From Bradyrhizobium sp. CCBAU 53340 (GTDB lineage: Bacteria; Pseudomonadota; Alphaproteobacteria; Rhizobiales; Xanthobacteraceae), in contig NZ_CP030055.1 in assembly GCF_015291645.1 (NCBI RefSeq), positions 7,673,221-7,737,220 of the forward strand: 64,000 nucleotides of DNA, given 5' to 3'. The notes beneath the pieces are model-generated. The model did not search any database. It had not been told where the DNA came from and saw only the letters and a list, made by a program, of their open reading frames with translations. This document shows positions 38,113-43,630 of the stretch, one piece after another. Within the stretch, counting starts at the first letter, position 1; every line of letters starts with the position of its first letter. The translations under genes were made by a program, and so were the position numbers.

Positions 38113-39891
38113 TCAGAAGGTCCATGCTCGCAATTCGTCCAGTACCCGATCCAGCACGCTCTCGAATTCGCACGTCTCGGTCTGCCGGAACAGACGCACG
38201 CTCGGATACCAGGGGCTGTCCGTGCGGTCGAGCAGCCAGCGATAATCGGGCGTCCACGGCAGCAGGATCCACGTTGGGCAGCCGAGCGCGCCGGCGAGAT
38301 GGGCGACGCTGGTGTCGACGGTGATCACGACATCGAGGCATCTGATCAAGGCGGCGGTGTCAGTGAAGTCGGTGAGATCAGCGGTCAGGTCGACGATGTC
38401 GCTTCGCTCGCGCAGCACCGCCGCATCATGCGGGCGCGGGACTTTCTGCAGGCTGATGAAGGTGGCATCGACGTCGAGGATGATGCGGGACAGCGTTCGC
38501 AGTGGAATGGAGCGGGTCTCGTCATTCACATGCGAGGGATCGCCGGACCAGACCAGGCCGACCCTGAGTCTGGTTCGAGGACCCAGGCGATTCTCCCAGG
38601 CCTGAACAAGACTGTCTGGAGGAGGAGGAAGATACGGCATGTCTGCCGGGATCGTATCGAGACGCGTCTTGAAGGCCAGCGGCAGGCTGGAGATCGGGCA
38701 GTGCAGATCGAAGGCCGGTAGCGTGCCCAAGGCCGACATCGGCACGCAGTGGGAGACATCGCGCAGCGACTGCAACAGCCGATGCAGCGGGTCCTGAACG
38801 GCAAGCAGAACGCGCGCTCGGCGCTCCGCCAGCATGGGAACGTAGCGGGCGAAGTGAATGGTGTCGCCCAAGCCCTCGTCCGCTGCGATCAGGATCGTCT
38901 TTCCGTCAATACTGTCGTCACCGAGCCACATCGGCTGCGAAAACCTGGGGTATTTCGCCGAAGGCAGTTTCGATCGGGTCTGGTGTCCGCGCCAGCCGGC
39001 TTCGAAATTGCCTGTCAGCAGATAGGCCAGGGACACATTCCACTCGGTCACCACATCGCTGAGCCCGAGCGACTTCATGGAATCGGCCAGCGCAAAGACC
39101 TCGTCGAAGCGATGCAGGTGGAACAGCGCGACCAGCTTGTTGTCGAAGGCATCCGCGAAGCGCGGTTGAAGCGCGATGGCTTTTTCGAACCATGTCAGCG
39201 CCCCCTCGTTGCGACGAAGCCGCCGCAAGGCAAGACCCAGATTGTTGCAGATCTCGGCATTGTCGGGATCAAGCTGATGCGCCCGCATGCCGTCGCGCGC
39301 GGACTCCTCGTAGCGTTTCAGGCCATAGAGAACCCATGCGCGCGTCCGCAGTGTCGGGGCATGGTTCGGTAACAGGCTGTCGCTGAGATCGAGGCAGGCA
39401 AGCGCCTCTTCGTTCCGCCCGAGCTTGTGGAGGACAATACCGTTCTTGTAGAGGGCGTCGCACTGATGCGGATTGAGCTTGAGTGCATGCTGGAAGCTCA
39501 GGAGGGCCTGCTCTAGGCGCGCAAGCTGGATGAAGATGTCGCCGCGCTGGCACCACAATGCGGCGTCGTCGGCGCGAAGCTGGATCGCTTTGTCGAGGAC
39601 GCCGAGCGCTTCCTCGCAGCGCCCATGCTGCTGCAGCACGCTGGCGAAGCTCGCAAGATATTCGGGCTTGGGCGCGCGCCGGATCGCGCGGACGATCCAC
39701 TCCAGCGCGTCATTGTAGTGCCTGGCGTGGAGAAACAGCAGCCCCCTGAGATGCTGGGCGTCCGTATGCTCCGCATCGATGCTGAGGGCCTGCTGGCAGC
39801 AAACGCTGGCGTCGAGATGCCGCCCGTCTCTGAAATGCTGAAAGCCCGCGGCACAGAACGCGGCTGGTGTGCTCATCTCAATCCCGTTCAT
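38113..39891 (-). CDS. TPR protein with C-terminal glycosyltransferase-like domain
   Basis: A 592-residue protein. Residues about 15-330 are tetratricopeptide repeats (seen in NPHQCDALYKNGIVLHKLGR, then DNAEICNNLGLALRRLRRNE and similar units spaced by 34). The C-terminal part (about 350-590) resembles family 9-type glycosyltransferases: IAADEGLGDTIHFARYVPML, RVGLVWSGDPSH and TVDTSVAHLAGALGCPTWIL. The combination is common in Rhizobiales, and acceptors are unknown. ATG 39891 or 39876 may be the true start; the frame upstream is not TPR-like. It is divergent from the double-glycine peptide gene, about 275 bp away. Confidence 0.82.
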   Translation of the reverse strand: MNGIEMSTPAAFCAAGFQHFRDGRHLDASVCCQQALSIDAEHTDAQHLRGLLFLHARHYNDALEWIVRAIRRAPKPEYLASFASVLQQHGRCEEALGVLDKAIQLRADDAALWCQRGDIFIQLARLEQALLSFQHALKLNPHQCDALYKNGIVLHKLGRNEEALACLDLSDSLLPNHAPTLRTRAWVLYGLKRYEESARDGMRAHQLDPDNAEICNNLGLALRRLRRNEGALTWFEKAIALQPRFADAFDNKLVALFHLHRFDEVFALADSMKSLGLSDVVTEWNVSLAYLLTGNFEAGWRGHQTRSKLPSAKYPRFSQPMWLGDDSIDGKTILIAADEGLGDTIHFARYVPMLAERRARVLLAVQDPLHRLLQSLRDVSHCVPMSALGTLPAFDLHCPISSLPLAFKTRLDTIPADMPYLPPPPDSLVQAWENRLGPRTRLRVGLVWSGDPSHVNDETRSIPLRTLSRIILDVDATFISLQKVPRPHDAAVLRERSDIVDLTADLTDFTDTAALIRCLDVVITVDTSVAHLAGALGCPTWILLPWTPDYRWLLDRTDSPWYPSVRLFRQTETCEFESVLDRVLDELRAWTF

Positions 39892-40044
39892 GACCAAGGC
39901 CCGCCTCGGTAGCGGCAGCCGCTTCTGTTCAAATGGCGGATGAACGGGCCAACCCCCGCTCCGTTGGCATCGCGGTCGGCGACATCTCAGCAGACGAAGA
40001 TTGCGTGGGGGTTGCGGAGCGACGACCTGAACCAGCGAATGAGA

Positions 40045-40070: not shown

Positions 40071-40165
40071 CTGTGTGTCTCCCGTCACGGCAGCGCGACT
40101 GACATAGCCGCATTCTCCTCGCATCGCGCGGAATGGACCGCCCGATGGGAAATGAGGAGACTGCC

Positions 40166-40306
40166 ATGCAGACCATGGCTCGCGAATTGACGGAGACGGA
40201 ACTGGAGACGATCGCCGGCGGAAGCTTCTGGGGCAGCATTGCCGGCTTCTTCCGCGGCCTGTTCGGCGGCCCCGGCGATCTTCGCCGTCCGCTCGACCGC
40301 CCCTGA
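40166..40306 (+). CDS. Small peptide with a double-glycine leader (candidate bacteriocin or other exported peptide)
   Basis: A 46-codon gene with GAGGAG seven to eight bases before the ATG. The N-terminus, MARELTETELETIAGG (from residue 4), follows the double-glycine leader pattern LxxxELxxIxGG cut by C39-peptidase ABC exporters. Cleavage after Gly19 would release a 27-residue core that starts SFWGSIAGFFRGLFGG and ends in a proline- and arginine-rich tail. The core is glycine- and phenylalanine-rich with no cysteine, so disulfides or lanthionines are excluded. A strong hairpin follows at 40336-40363. No exporter, immunity gene or obvious modifying enzyme is adjacent apart from the divergent TPR-glycosyltransferase. 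Exported signal, bacteriocin and chance are all possible; the leader and ribosome site argue against chance. Confidence 0.68.
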   Translation: MQTMARELTETELETIAGGSFWGSIAGFFRGLFGGPGDLRRPLDRP

Positions 40307-40335
40307 TCTCAACCGATCTTTCGATCGCAGCAGTC

Positions 40336-40363
40336 GGACGGGGGGCGCGCGCGGCCCCCGTCC
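40336..40363. terminator. Bidirectional terminator-like hairpin
   Basis: GGACGGGGG and CCCCCGTCC form a perfect 9-bp GC stem with a 10-nt loop. It lies between the convergent peptide gene (ends 40306) and the 97-residue gene (ends 40373). There is no T tract. Confidence 0.6.
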
Positions 40364-40372
40364 TCGCAGAAT

Positions 40373-40666
40373 TCAGTGCCTCACATGCTCGAACACGACG
40401 ATCACGCCGGTCGGTTCGGGCTCGTGTGCCATCAGGCGCGTCAAATCAGCATCGCTCCAGTCCGCGAGGCTGACGACTTCGCCCGTCTGGCGTTCCGCGC
40501 TCAGCGAAGGCGTCGGCTCGAGAACCTTCAACCCCATTTCGTCGACGAAGAACGTGTGTTCACCGAACATGCTGTTGAGCTGCGGCATGGCGGGATGTTC
40601 GTCGGGCAGCACCTGGGCGCCGAGCTGGTTGACGGTCTGCTTCACCTGTTCGGATGTGAGCTTCAT
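40373..40666 (-). CDS. Hypothetical protein, 97 residues
   Basis: A small, acidic, soluble-looking protein that starts MKLTSEQVKQTVNQLGAQVL; I do not recognise the family. It has no signal peptide, membrane helix or cysteine. Its middle (MFGEHTFFVDEMGLKVLEP) looks like a beta-hairpin, and the C-terminus VIVVFEHVRH like a buried strand. ACGGAGC stands about 8 nt before the ATG. It converges with the double-glycine peptide gene, sharing a terminator with it; a role as immunity protein is only a thought. Bases 40667-40891 upstream hold no other gene I can support. Confidence 0.65.
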   Translation of the reverse strand: MKLTSEQVKQTVNQLGAQVLPDEHPAMPQLNSMFGEHTFFVDEMGLKVLEPTPSLSAERQTGEVVSLADWSDADLTRLMAHEPEPTGVIVVFEHVRH

Positions 40667-41774: not shown

Positions 41775-42602
41775 ATGCGCTGTCTGGTCGTAGCCGACCT
41801 TCACTACTCACTGCCGCAGTTCGACTGGCTGGTCAGCGCGGCACCGCAGTTCGACCTTCTGATCTTCGCCGGCGATGCGCTCGACATCGGCTCGATGGTG
41901 GATTTTCGCGCGCAGATCGTGGTGATGAAGAAGTACCTCGCGCTGATCGCTGCGCAGACCCGCGTGATCCTCTGCTCCGGCAATCATGACCTCGACGAGC
42001 GCAATGCGGAGGGCGAGAAGATCTCACGCTGGATCTCGGAGCTGCGCGAGCTCGGCATCGCCTGCGACGGCGACAATCTGGCCATCGGCGACACGCTGTT
42101 CACGGTGTGCCCATGGTGGGACGGGCCCCTGGTCAAGCAGCGCCTCGCCGACCAGCTTCGTGATGCATCTGTCAATCGCCCGCAGCGCTGGATCTGGGCG
42201 CACCACGCGCCGCCGGCAAATTCGCCAACGAGCTGGGGCGGCAAGCGCTTCTTCGGCGATGTCGAGCTGGTGCAGTGGATCACGCAGTACCAGCCCTCCA
42301 TGGTGATCTCGGGCCATGTTCATCAATCGCCCTTCATCAGGGACGGCTCGTGGTTCGACCGGATCGGCCAGACCTGGGTGTTTAACGCCGGCCTGCAACC
42401 CGGACGACCGCCTACGCATATCGTTCTGGATCTGGAAGAGAACAAGGCGTTCTGGCTTGCGGCCGGCGAGGCGCAGTGGATCGATCTCGGCGCGCCGCCG
42501 AAGCGGCCAGCGTCCTACATCGAAGAGGCGCCGGACTGGCTCACATCCTTGGATCGGATTGCCGATCGGAGCCTGGCGAGACCTCGAGCGGCTGCAGGTT
42601 GA
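41775..42602 (+). CDS. Metallophosphoesterase
   Basis: A 275-residue calcineurin-like phosphoesterase with the five metal-site blocks in order: DLH (VVADLHYS), GDALD, GNHD (CSGNHDLDE), HH (IWAHHAPPA) and GHVH (VISGHVHQSP). The N-terminus starts directly with the first metal-binding strand, so ATG 41775 is favoured over 41703. The substrate (phosphodiester or phosphomonoester) cannot be told. Its last 62 bases overlap the 3' end of the convergent cyclic-nucleotide-binding gene. Confidence 0.86.
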   Translation: MRCLVVADLHYSLPQFDWLVSAAPQFDLLIFAGDALDIGSMVDFRAQIVVMKKYLALIAAQTRVILCSGNHDLDERNAEGEKISRWISELRELGIACDGDNLAIGDTLFTVCPWWDGPLVKQRLADQLRDASVNRPQRWIWAHHAPPANSPTSWGGKRFFGDVELVQWITQYQPSMVISGHVHQSPFIRDGSWFDRIGQTWVFNAGLQPGRPPTHIVLDLEENKAFWLAAGEAQWIDLGAPPKRPASYIEEAPDWLTSLDRIADRSLARPRAAAG

Positions 42603-43026
42603 TCATGCTCTGGAGCACCTCGCCGACCATGGCGAGATGCGTGCCGTGGCCGGCATATTGCCGCTTGAGGTCGGCGAGATAGGTGTTGGCGACATTGAGC
42701 CGCTGTGCCAGCAGTTTTGCGATCAGGAGCGCGACCTCCGGCTCCTGCTTGAGGAACGAAGCGGCATCCTCGAATTCGTAGATCACAGCATCCGAACAGG
42801 CCCGCACCGTTGCGGTGTGCGCCTGGCCCAGCAGCACCGACATTTCTCCCAGCACCGCGCCAGGCTCGGTGACGGTCGCCACCACCATGTCGCCCTTGAG
42901 CACCTCGAGCTTGCCCTGCATCAGCACGTAGAGATGTCCGCTGGTGCCGCCCTCGGTGACGACCAGCGTCCCGGCCGCAACCTGTCGCTTCGTTCCACCG
43001 GTGCAATAGTCCAGAACCGCGCGCAT
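42541..43026 (-). CDS. Cyclic-nucleotide-binding domain protein without HTH
   Basis: A 161-residue protein made of little more than one cNMP-binding domain of the Crp/Fnr type. The phosphate-binding cassette region reads GAVLGEMSVLLGQAHTATVRA, here noted as GEMSVLLGQ and HTATVRA; the usual Arg after GE-S is replaced by the HTATVRA arrangement. There is no C-terminal helix-turn-helix, only a helical tail of about 40 residues, so it is not a classical transcription factor. GGGAGC precedes the ATG at 43026. It may act as a cNMP or ligand-sensing partner protein. Confidence 0.8.
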   Translation of the reverse strand: MRAVLDYCTGGTKRQVAAGTLVVTEGGTSGHLYVLMQGKLEVLKGDMVVATVTEPGAVLGEMSVLLGQAHTATVRACSDAVIYEFEDAASFLKQEPEVALLIAKLLAQRLNVANTYLADLKRQYAGHGTHLAMVGEVLQSMINLQPLEVSPGSDRQSDPRM

Positions 43027-43102
43027 CGCCGAAAGCTCCCGTCGGGATATTCGGGATGACACTAGAGCACGATCCGTGCCACGCGGCAAATCGGGGAGAT
43101 GG

Positions 43103-43630
43103 CTATCGCGACAGGCGTTTTGCGAATTGAACCGATTGCCAGTCCCCAAGGCCCGTATCTTCAAAGCCGGCCTTCCGGGCAAGACCGCGCATTTCGGCGT
43201 TTGTCCGCGCCGTTTCGGCCGCAATCATCTCGTGACCGAGGTTGCTTGCATGCCGCTCCATCGCCGTCACCATTTGCAGGCCGATGCCCTTGCGCTGAAA
43301 CACATCGGTCACGGAGATGGCGAAATCGCCGTGGCGCGCGGCGGCATCATAGGCGTAGCGCGTTTCGCCGATGATCCTGCTCTCGCCCTCCCGCCTGAGT
43401 TCGGCGAGCAAGGTGAAGTGATCGGGATGGCCCGTCTTGGCCAGGCACTCGGCCGCAACCACGGACGAGTCCGCCCGCGCGCCCATGAAGCGCTTGTTGC
43501 GCGTTGTCGTGGAAAGGCCCGTGAAATAGATCGAGAGGCCCTCTACATCGGACGCATTGGCGGTCCTGATGCAGACCGTGCCGTTCGGCCCGTCCGGCGC
43601 AACAACGGTGTTCGGAAATGGCGGTGACAT
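43103..43630 (-). CDS. GNAT-family N-acetyltransferase
   Basis: A 175-residue acetyltransferase of the GCN5 superfamily. VFQRKGIGLQMVTAMERHA is the acetyl-CoA pyrophosphate loop (Q/RxxGxG/A) of motif A, followed by AETARTNAEMRGLARKAGF, the typical motif B. The N-terminal FTGLSTTTRNKRFMG resembles the acetyltransferase module of protein acetylases of the Pat type, which hints at a protein substrate. ATG 43630 (MSPPFPNTV) is preferred over 43666. Confidence 0.83.
   Translation of the reverse strand: MSPPFPNTVVAPDGPNGTVCIRTANASDVEGLSIYFTGLSTTTRNKRFMGARADSSVVAAECLAKTGHPDHFTLLAELRREGESRIIGETRYAYDAAARHGDFAISVTDVFQRKGIGLQMVTAMERHASNLGHEMIAAETARTNAEMRGLARKAGFEDTGLGDWQSVQFAKRLSR

Follow-up and report, generated by a model that had tools for sequence, protein, structure and literature searches.

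Peptides with double-glycine (GG) leaders, C39 exporters, the NHLP export cassette and precursors located at a distance from their export genes are known already. Among the closest described systems are the ComC/BlpC-type precursors (PF03047) and the class II bacteriocins or microcins, which share with the locus analyzed here a short leader of the RELx3ELx2IxGG type, a small core free of Cys and a C39 exporter in the genome. They differ from it in several respects. In the window, which is the whole 64,000-nucleotide stretch of Bradyrhizobium sp. CCBAU 53340 that was analyzed, no linked exporter, immunity or regulator gene was found at the peptide site; the leader just missed the TIGR01847 cut-off (14.4 against 15.7 bits) and did not reach that of the class II bacteriocin model PF10439 (17.7 against 27.1 bits); and this core family appears, from sequence searches, almost only in Bradyrhizobium.

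The NHLP and N11P precursors (Haft et al. 2010, PMC2887384) use, according to the available part of that paper, the same three-gene exporter (TIGR03794, TIGR03796 and TIGR03797), and precursors far from the export genes were already noted there. Their leaders are long, with the Gly-Gly at average positions 83 and 70, whereas the leader studied here ends with Gly-Gly at residue 19, matches ComC, and gave no match in Pfam or NCBIfam to a long leader of this type (nitrile hydratase- or Nif11-related). The cyanobacterial GG-motif biofilm proteins (PMC4997328) and C39 clusters (PMC3140520) are alike in being small GG-motif proteins of Gram-negative bacteria, several per genome; the parts of these two papers covered mention no CRP-type box or scattered regulon, and it is by description that those sets are kept apart. 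The contact-dependent bacteriocin Cdz of Caulobacter (PMC5380434) is likewise a case of small peptides that leave an alphaproteobacterium by type I export, and a tandem GG peptide in G024 and two other genomes extends the likeness. According to the available part of its description, however, Cdz is encoded in a single cluster that includes an exporter and an immunity gene, and the Gly spacing of the core studied here is not kept in the relatives of that core. In Bradyrhizobium, bacteriocin-like killing has been reported with the responsible gene left open (PMC4520892), and the accessible part of another paper describes self-suppression by a diffusible agent (PMC11896636). The titles and abstract beginnings that searches of an open-licence library listed contained no description of Bradyrhizobium GG peptides or of such a regulon. 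What appears to be new is a set of short-leader GG peptides that are dispersed, seemingly co-regulated and served by one exporter in trans, together with a CRP-type palindrome common to unlinked GG-precursor genes.

The precursor reads MQTMARELTETELETIAGG/SFWGSIAGFFRGLFGGPGDLRRPLDRP (leader/core), and the features of its locus are collected in Table 1. The leader scored 23.6 bits against PF03047 (ComC), above the cut-off of 20.4. The consensus (R/K)ELx3E(I/L)x2(I/V)xG(G/A) is present as RELTETELETIAGG, with one Ala between Met and (R/K); in the consensus of PMC3140520, as given in the part available, Met immediately precedes (R/K). An earlier note on this DNA had described an unannotated 46-residue frame with a GG leader and a strong ribosome site. 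Both were confirmed, the frame by the leader score and nine close orthologues at the same site, and the ribosome site as a good Shine-Dalgarno stretch. The additional remark of that note, that the core belongs to no described family, stands only partly: two relatives are named 'ComC/BlpC family leader-containing pheromone/bacteriocin' by NCBI, a generic name based on the leader.

Table 1. Features of the peptide locus, in positions of the window
Feature	Position	Strand	Basis or remark
46-residue GG precursor gene	40166..40306	+	ORF, leader profile match, conservation
Leader, residues 1-19, Gly-Gly end	40166..40222	+	PF03047 above cut-off; variation in 3/15 columns (residues 5-19)
Core: variable amphipathic segment, residues 20-35	40223..40270	+	
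Core: conserved Arg-rich tail, residues 36-46	40271..40303	+	GDLRR invariant in 13 aligned rows
Shine-Dalgarno GAGGAG	40154..40159	+	
CRP-type box GTGTCTCCCGTCACGGC	40075..40091	+	91 nt before ATG; two mismatches to GTGAN6TCACAGC
Proposed -10 element CATTCT	40111..40116	+	box-based alignment
Inverted repeat GCGGAATGGACCGC, in the inferred 5'-UTR	40128..40141	+	
GC hairpin between convergent genes, common to the peptide gene and the neighbour gene	40336..40363	.	
Convergent 97-residue gene, neighbour	40373..40666	-	no Pfam match

Across 265 Bradyrhizobium genomes, 17 gave a match at E <= 0.01, the own genome included. One match (G258; E 0.008, inside a frame of 607 aa) was not credible and was dropped, leaving 16. 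In a first scan of 60 genomes, 41 had a match at E <= 10 and only five, again with the own genome, were better than E 0.02; in 24 genomes taken from other families of the order, no match was better than E 0.02. A scan of the GTDB species genomes gave 16 loci, 14 of them in Bradyrhizobium, one in a MAG and one in Paenibacillus, the last of which was taken as a chance match. Besides the own copy, close orthologues are found in G018, G137, G095, G014, G229 and G230 (98-91% identity), G153 (80%) and G211 (74%). The two downstream neighbours, the convergent 97-residue gene and a glycosylase-type gene, are the same in 9/9 close orthologues, own included.

The earlier note had named as signs against the gene a lack of conservation of leader or frame in close relatives, a dN/dS near 1, and absence of a C39-type exporter from the genome. 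Leader and frame are both conserved. Pairwise dN/dS was 0.05-0.29 among the seven closest orthologues (one identical pair has no ratio) and 0.23-1.0 where G153 or G211 enters the comparison. The exporter, too, is present in the genome, with Cys, His and Asp in place. Across seven orthologue sequences (the G230 copy, which repeats that of G229, and the decayed G153 copy being left out), variation affected 3 of 15 columns in the leader, 10 of 16 in the helix and 2 of 11 in the tail. The distant homologues have 43-67% identity over the matched part and keep the leader and the GDLRR tail, with GDQRR in the G193 member, while the helix is changed. A longer ORF with 11 additional codons (start 40133) exists; the 46-residue start is the one common to the relatives, and it is lost in G153. 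The ORF is short and is overlapped by ORFs of the opposite strand, as a chance reading frame might be, but synonymous changes are in excess, the leader is conserved, and homologues with the same leader and tail occur at other loci. A chance frame is thereby almost inconceivable, and it was rejected on the evidence of dN/dS, leader and shared site. The 46-residue ORF is a real gene, and its identity as a GG-type exported peptide is well supported.

Not all copies remain whole. In G153 the Shine-Dalgarno stretch and the shared ATG are lost and the end runs on; in G084 the last codons alone remain, beside the 97-residue gene and unrelated sequence (L106). The G137 copy looks intact. Two further observations concern the relatives. 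In a metagenomic relative (P0007) a short block of the core differs while leader and tail are alike, as paired compensating frame changes would give. In G195, G249 and G024 (L045, L048, L113) the homologue has a tandem partner downstream, a second GG peptide with the core SML.MA..A..KYL.G, an arrangement like that of two-peptide bacteriocins.

The 97-residue gene occurs in 214 of the 265 genomes, whether the peptide is present or absent; an immunity role was rejected on this distribution, and the gene is regarded as a neighbour and not as part of the system. It is the only close downstream neighbour, and no immunity gene is evident beside the peptide gene. The GC hairpin that the earlier note had seen after the gene is real (stretch 40307-40372, folding energy -30.3 kcal/mol, z -2.36), but it does not belong to the peptide alone. 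The genes on its two sides are convergent, and a match at the DNA level persists in 6 of 24 neighbour loci that lack the peptide; a peptide-specific terminator was therefore rejected. Elsewhere nearby, a TPR protein with a weak glycosyltransferase-9 match (38113-39894, minus strand) is divergent from the peptide gene; of the nine orthologues, only the own copy and that of G014 have it at a distance of 1.5 kb or less. A cyclic-nucleotide-binding protein without a detected HTH (42541-43224, minus strand) lies 2.2 kb from the peptide gene.

Three C39 matches were found in the own genome, and the one with Cys, His and Asp in place is part of a full NHLP-type cassette (peptidase-ABC1, ABC2, HlyD) 1.74 Mb from the window. 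All three components lie at one locus and exceed their cut-offs (TIGR03796, 1035 bits; TIGR03797, 840; TIGR03794, 304), and two other GG precursors flank the exporter. The peptidase subunit was detected in 69 of the 265 genomes, 67 of which exceeded the curated cut-off; 14 control genomes gave no match. The exporter occurs in 13 of the 16 genomes with the peptide family against 56 of the 249 others (p 2.9e-6, uncorrected for genome relatedness); if G258 is kept, the count is 13 of 17 and p 9.6e-6. In G024 two GG peptides, one of them the homologue, are located about 1.4-1.8 kb away from where the exporter genes begin, with a third GG-type ORF between. The peptide carriers without the exporter are G137, G153 and G211; these hold ten C39-type matches, and Cys is absent in 6/6 of those read. 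G084 likewise gave no exporter match. The apparently intact copy of G137 in a genome without exporter speaks against strict dependence on it. In both exporter loci that were read, the gene divergent to hlyD (L113:8086-8613, minus strand; L034:9897-10511, plus strand) encodes a small protein that no Pfam model matched above cut-off; an immunity or assembly role is possible.

Alignment of the upstream DNA revealed a CRP-type palindrome some 90 nt ahead of the ATG, and unlinked GG-precursor genes of the own genome are preceded by it as well. Sites as good as the window box number 24 in the 64 kb, counting both strands; the box gains weight from its position and from the sequence GTG-N7-TCACGGC, which occurs 90-92 nt before the start in the window and in all six close orthologues examined. 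The full palindrome TGTGA-N6-TCACA occurs in unlinked members. A scan for the sigma-70 consensus found nothing. When 16 representatives were aligned on the box, an A was present at box+37 in 15, a peak unmatched in 5000 shuffles. Class II CRP promoters have a palindrome centred at -41.5, and if this A is read as the -11 A, the palindrome centre falls at exactly that position. The window box shares the spacing of the representatives. The transcription start would then lie near 40123, and the promoter geometry, as judged from sequence, resembles that of a class II CRP-type promoter to which a CRP-type protein may bind.

The inverted repeat GCGGAATGGACCGC also precedes homologues and the unlinked L037 peptide; it might form an RNA hairpin or serve as a second operator. 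A motif common to the whole set it is not: three exact sites occur in the own genome, two of them before GG peptides, and of 32 sites with up to one mismatch, the 30 that were read gave no further GG peptide.

The two mismatches of the window box to the full form, the GTGT or GTGC that replaces GTGA in the close group, and the decay in G153 and G084 could also mean that the gene is a leftover that has lost both its export and its control. This is very improbable given the low dN/dS of the seven closest orthologues and the intact exporter of the own genome.

The association of the box with GG precursors was examined in all 265 genomes with the strict form GTGANNNNSGTCACAGCG. It occurs at 94 sites in 70 genomes, and the downstream DNA was read at 94/94. 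With a GG leader, a ribosome site and a start within 350 nt as the criterion, a GG-leader ORF follows 29 of the 45 sites in exporter genomes against 1 of the 49 elsewhere (p 1.6e-11, relatedness uncorrected), and the single case without an exporter (L254) is unconvincing. The start of the ORF lies 82-98 nt after the start of the box in 27 of the 29, and at 121 nt in two, the true start being used for G024. All nine strict boxes located 10 kb or less from an exporter have a GG ORF downstream. The exporter-less genomes show 0.25 chance sites per genome. At that rate the 69 exporter genomes should contain about 17, and the sites without a GG ORF seen there numbered 16. At this rate of chance sites, the link between box and exporter per genome is only modest, any strict box being found in 26 of 69 exporter genomes and 44 of 196 others (p 0.017). 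The strong signal is what follows the box and not its presence. The cores behind the boxes are of several types and look unrelated by eye.

A looser form, GTGAN6TCACRGC, has 25 sites in the own genome against 8 in the reversed control. By the filter, 4 of the 25 have a GG ORF downstream, and a fifth (L148) precedes L329; of 4600 random positions in the retrieved loci, which include some with known GG peptides, 104 passed the filter. The 500 nt preceding hlyD contained no box in either the own genome or G024, even with three mismatches allowed; control of the exporter may therefore be of another kind. Beside the own exporter locus, a box GTGACTGCCCTCACAGC (L034:10770-10786, minus strand) has an ATG about 94 nt downstream and no GG-leader ORF; it is perhaps a decayed member.

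A model of the leader alone, built from 21 rows of which seven came from the own genome and were those already known, gave 16 matches in this genome at E <= 10 and ten at E <= 0.11. Eight of the ten have a box 83-121 nt upstream, a box being here GTG-N7-TCAC or a site with up to two mismatches to the full form. Of the remaining two, one follows a boxed gene as its tandem partner and the other is unboxed; the six weaker matches have no box (0/6). L329 and L330 are new boxed members from this search. One GG-leader ORF of this genome, L328 (C1:6230194), scores well on its leader (E 0.005) but has no box. By leader search the own genome thus encodes ten GG precursors, scattered and of about eight core types by eye.

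A mechanism may be proposed from these observations. A CRP-type regulator would bind the box and switch on the dispersed GG-precursor genes together. The leader would bring the precursor to the unlinked NHLP-type exporter, whose C39 peptidase domain would read the leader and cut after Gly19, and the 27-residue core would leave the cell, probably unmodified. The own genome has 23 matches to the Crp-type HTH; one candidate regulator among them is a protein of 224 residues with a cyclic-nucleotide domain and a helix, RESVNR, that resembles the RExxxR of E. coli CRP. We regard it as moderately probable that this gene belongs to such a co-regulated set of NHLP-exported, C39-cleaved GG peptides, and that its core is membrane-active against nearby and probably related bacteria.

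The core is free of Cys and has a charge of about +1.5 and a computed monoisotopic mass of 2977.55 Da. The earlier note had likened it to pore-forming class II bacteriocins or a secreted signal, either of which would be a putative activity. Its own helix is moderately amphipathic (p 0.03), and 10 of the 12 cores tested have an amphipathicity p under 0.05, the other two being at 0.08 and 0.11. The structure model is weak (mean pLDDT 64.6) and predominantly helical, with its highest value, 77, over residues 21-30. Gly is located at positions 4, 8, 12 and 16 of the core, but by eye the relatives have Asn or other residues at 8 and 12; a conserved glycine zipper (GxxxG repeats) was therefore rejected. 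A variable helix joined to a constant tail is, on sequence grounds, consistent with a peptide that acts on membranes and whose tail serves for anchoring or recognition. The amphipathic helix and the Arg-rich tail would most likely act on the membranes of nearby, probably related, bacteria.

The target could also be the producer population itself. With the same promoter and export, the peptides might be factors of biofilm, surface or colony behaviour, or signals, and not bacteriocins. The lack of an evident immunity gene next to the peptide gene makes this the main rival. Many different cores are placed under one control, and the available part of a study of Synechococcus GG-motif proteins offers a precedent (PMC4997328). 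An amphipathic helix with fast-changing residues behind a constant leader is nevertheless more typical of antagonism, and a role within the producer population seems to us possible but rather unlikely. Action of the exported core on the plant host is improbable: the relatives include Bradyrhizobium that are legume-associated by name, but the core is without Tyr and so unlike the RaxX type, which is sulfated. Antagonism toward nearby bacteria remains the preferred reading.

Secreted peptides are usually sought beside their exporters. Most members of the present set stand by themselves, and what they have in common is a promoter motif. A search for gene clusters would overlook them, and the motif itself offers a way to list the secreted peptides of a bacterium. 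For the exporter-bearing Bradyrhizobium, members of a common soil genus that is also used as inoculant, we think it reasonably likely that one CRP-type regulator, perhaps dependent on cAMP, drives dispersed and unrelated GG peptides toward a single NHLP exporter. New cores would be added where the unit of promoter and leader is placed before new sequences, and members would decay when the exporter is lost.
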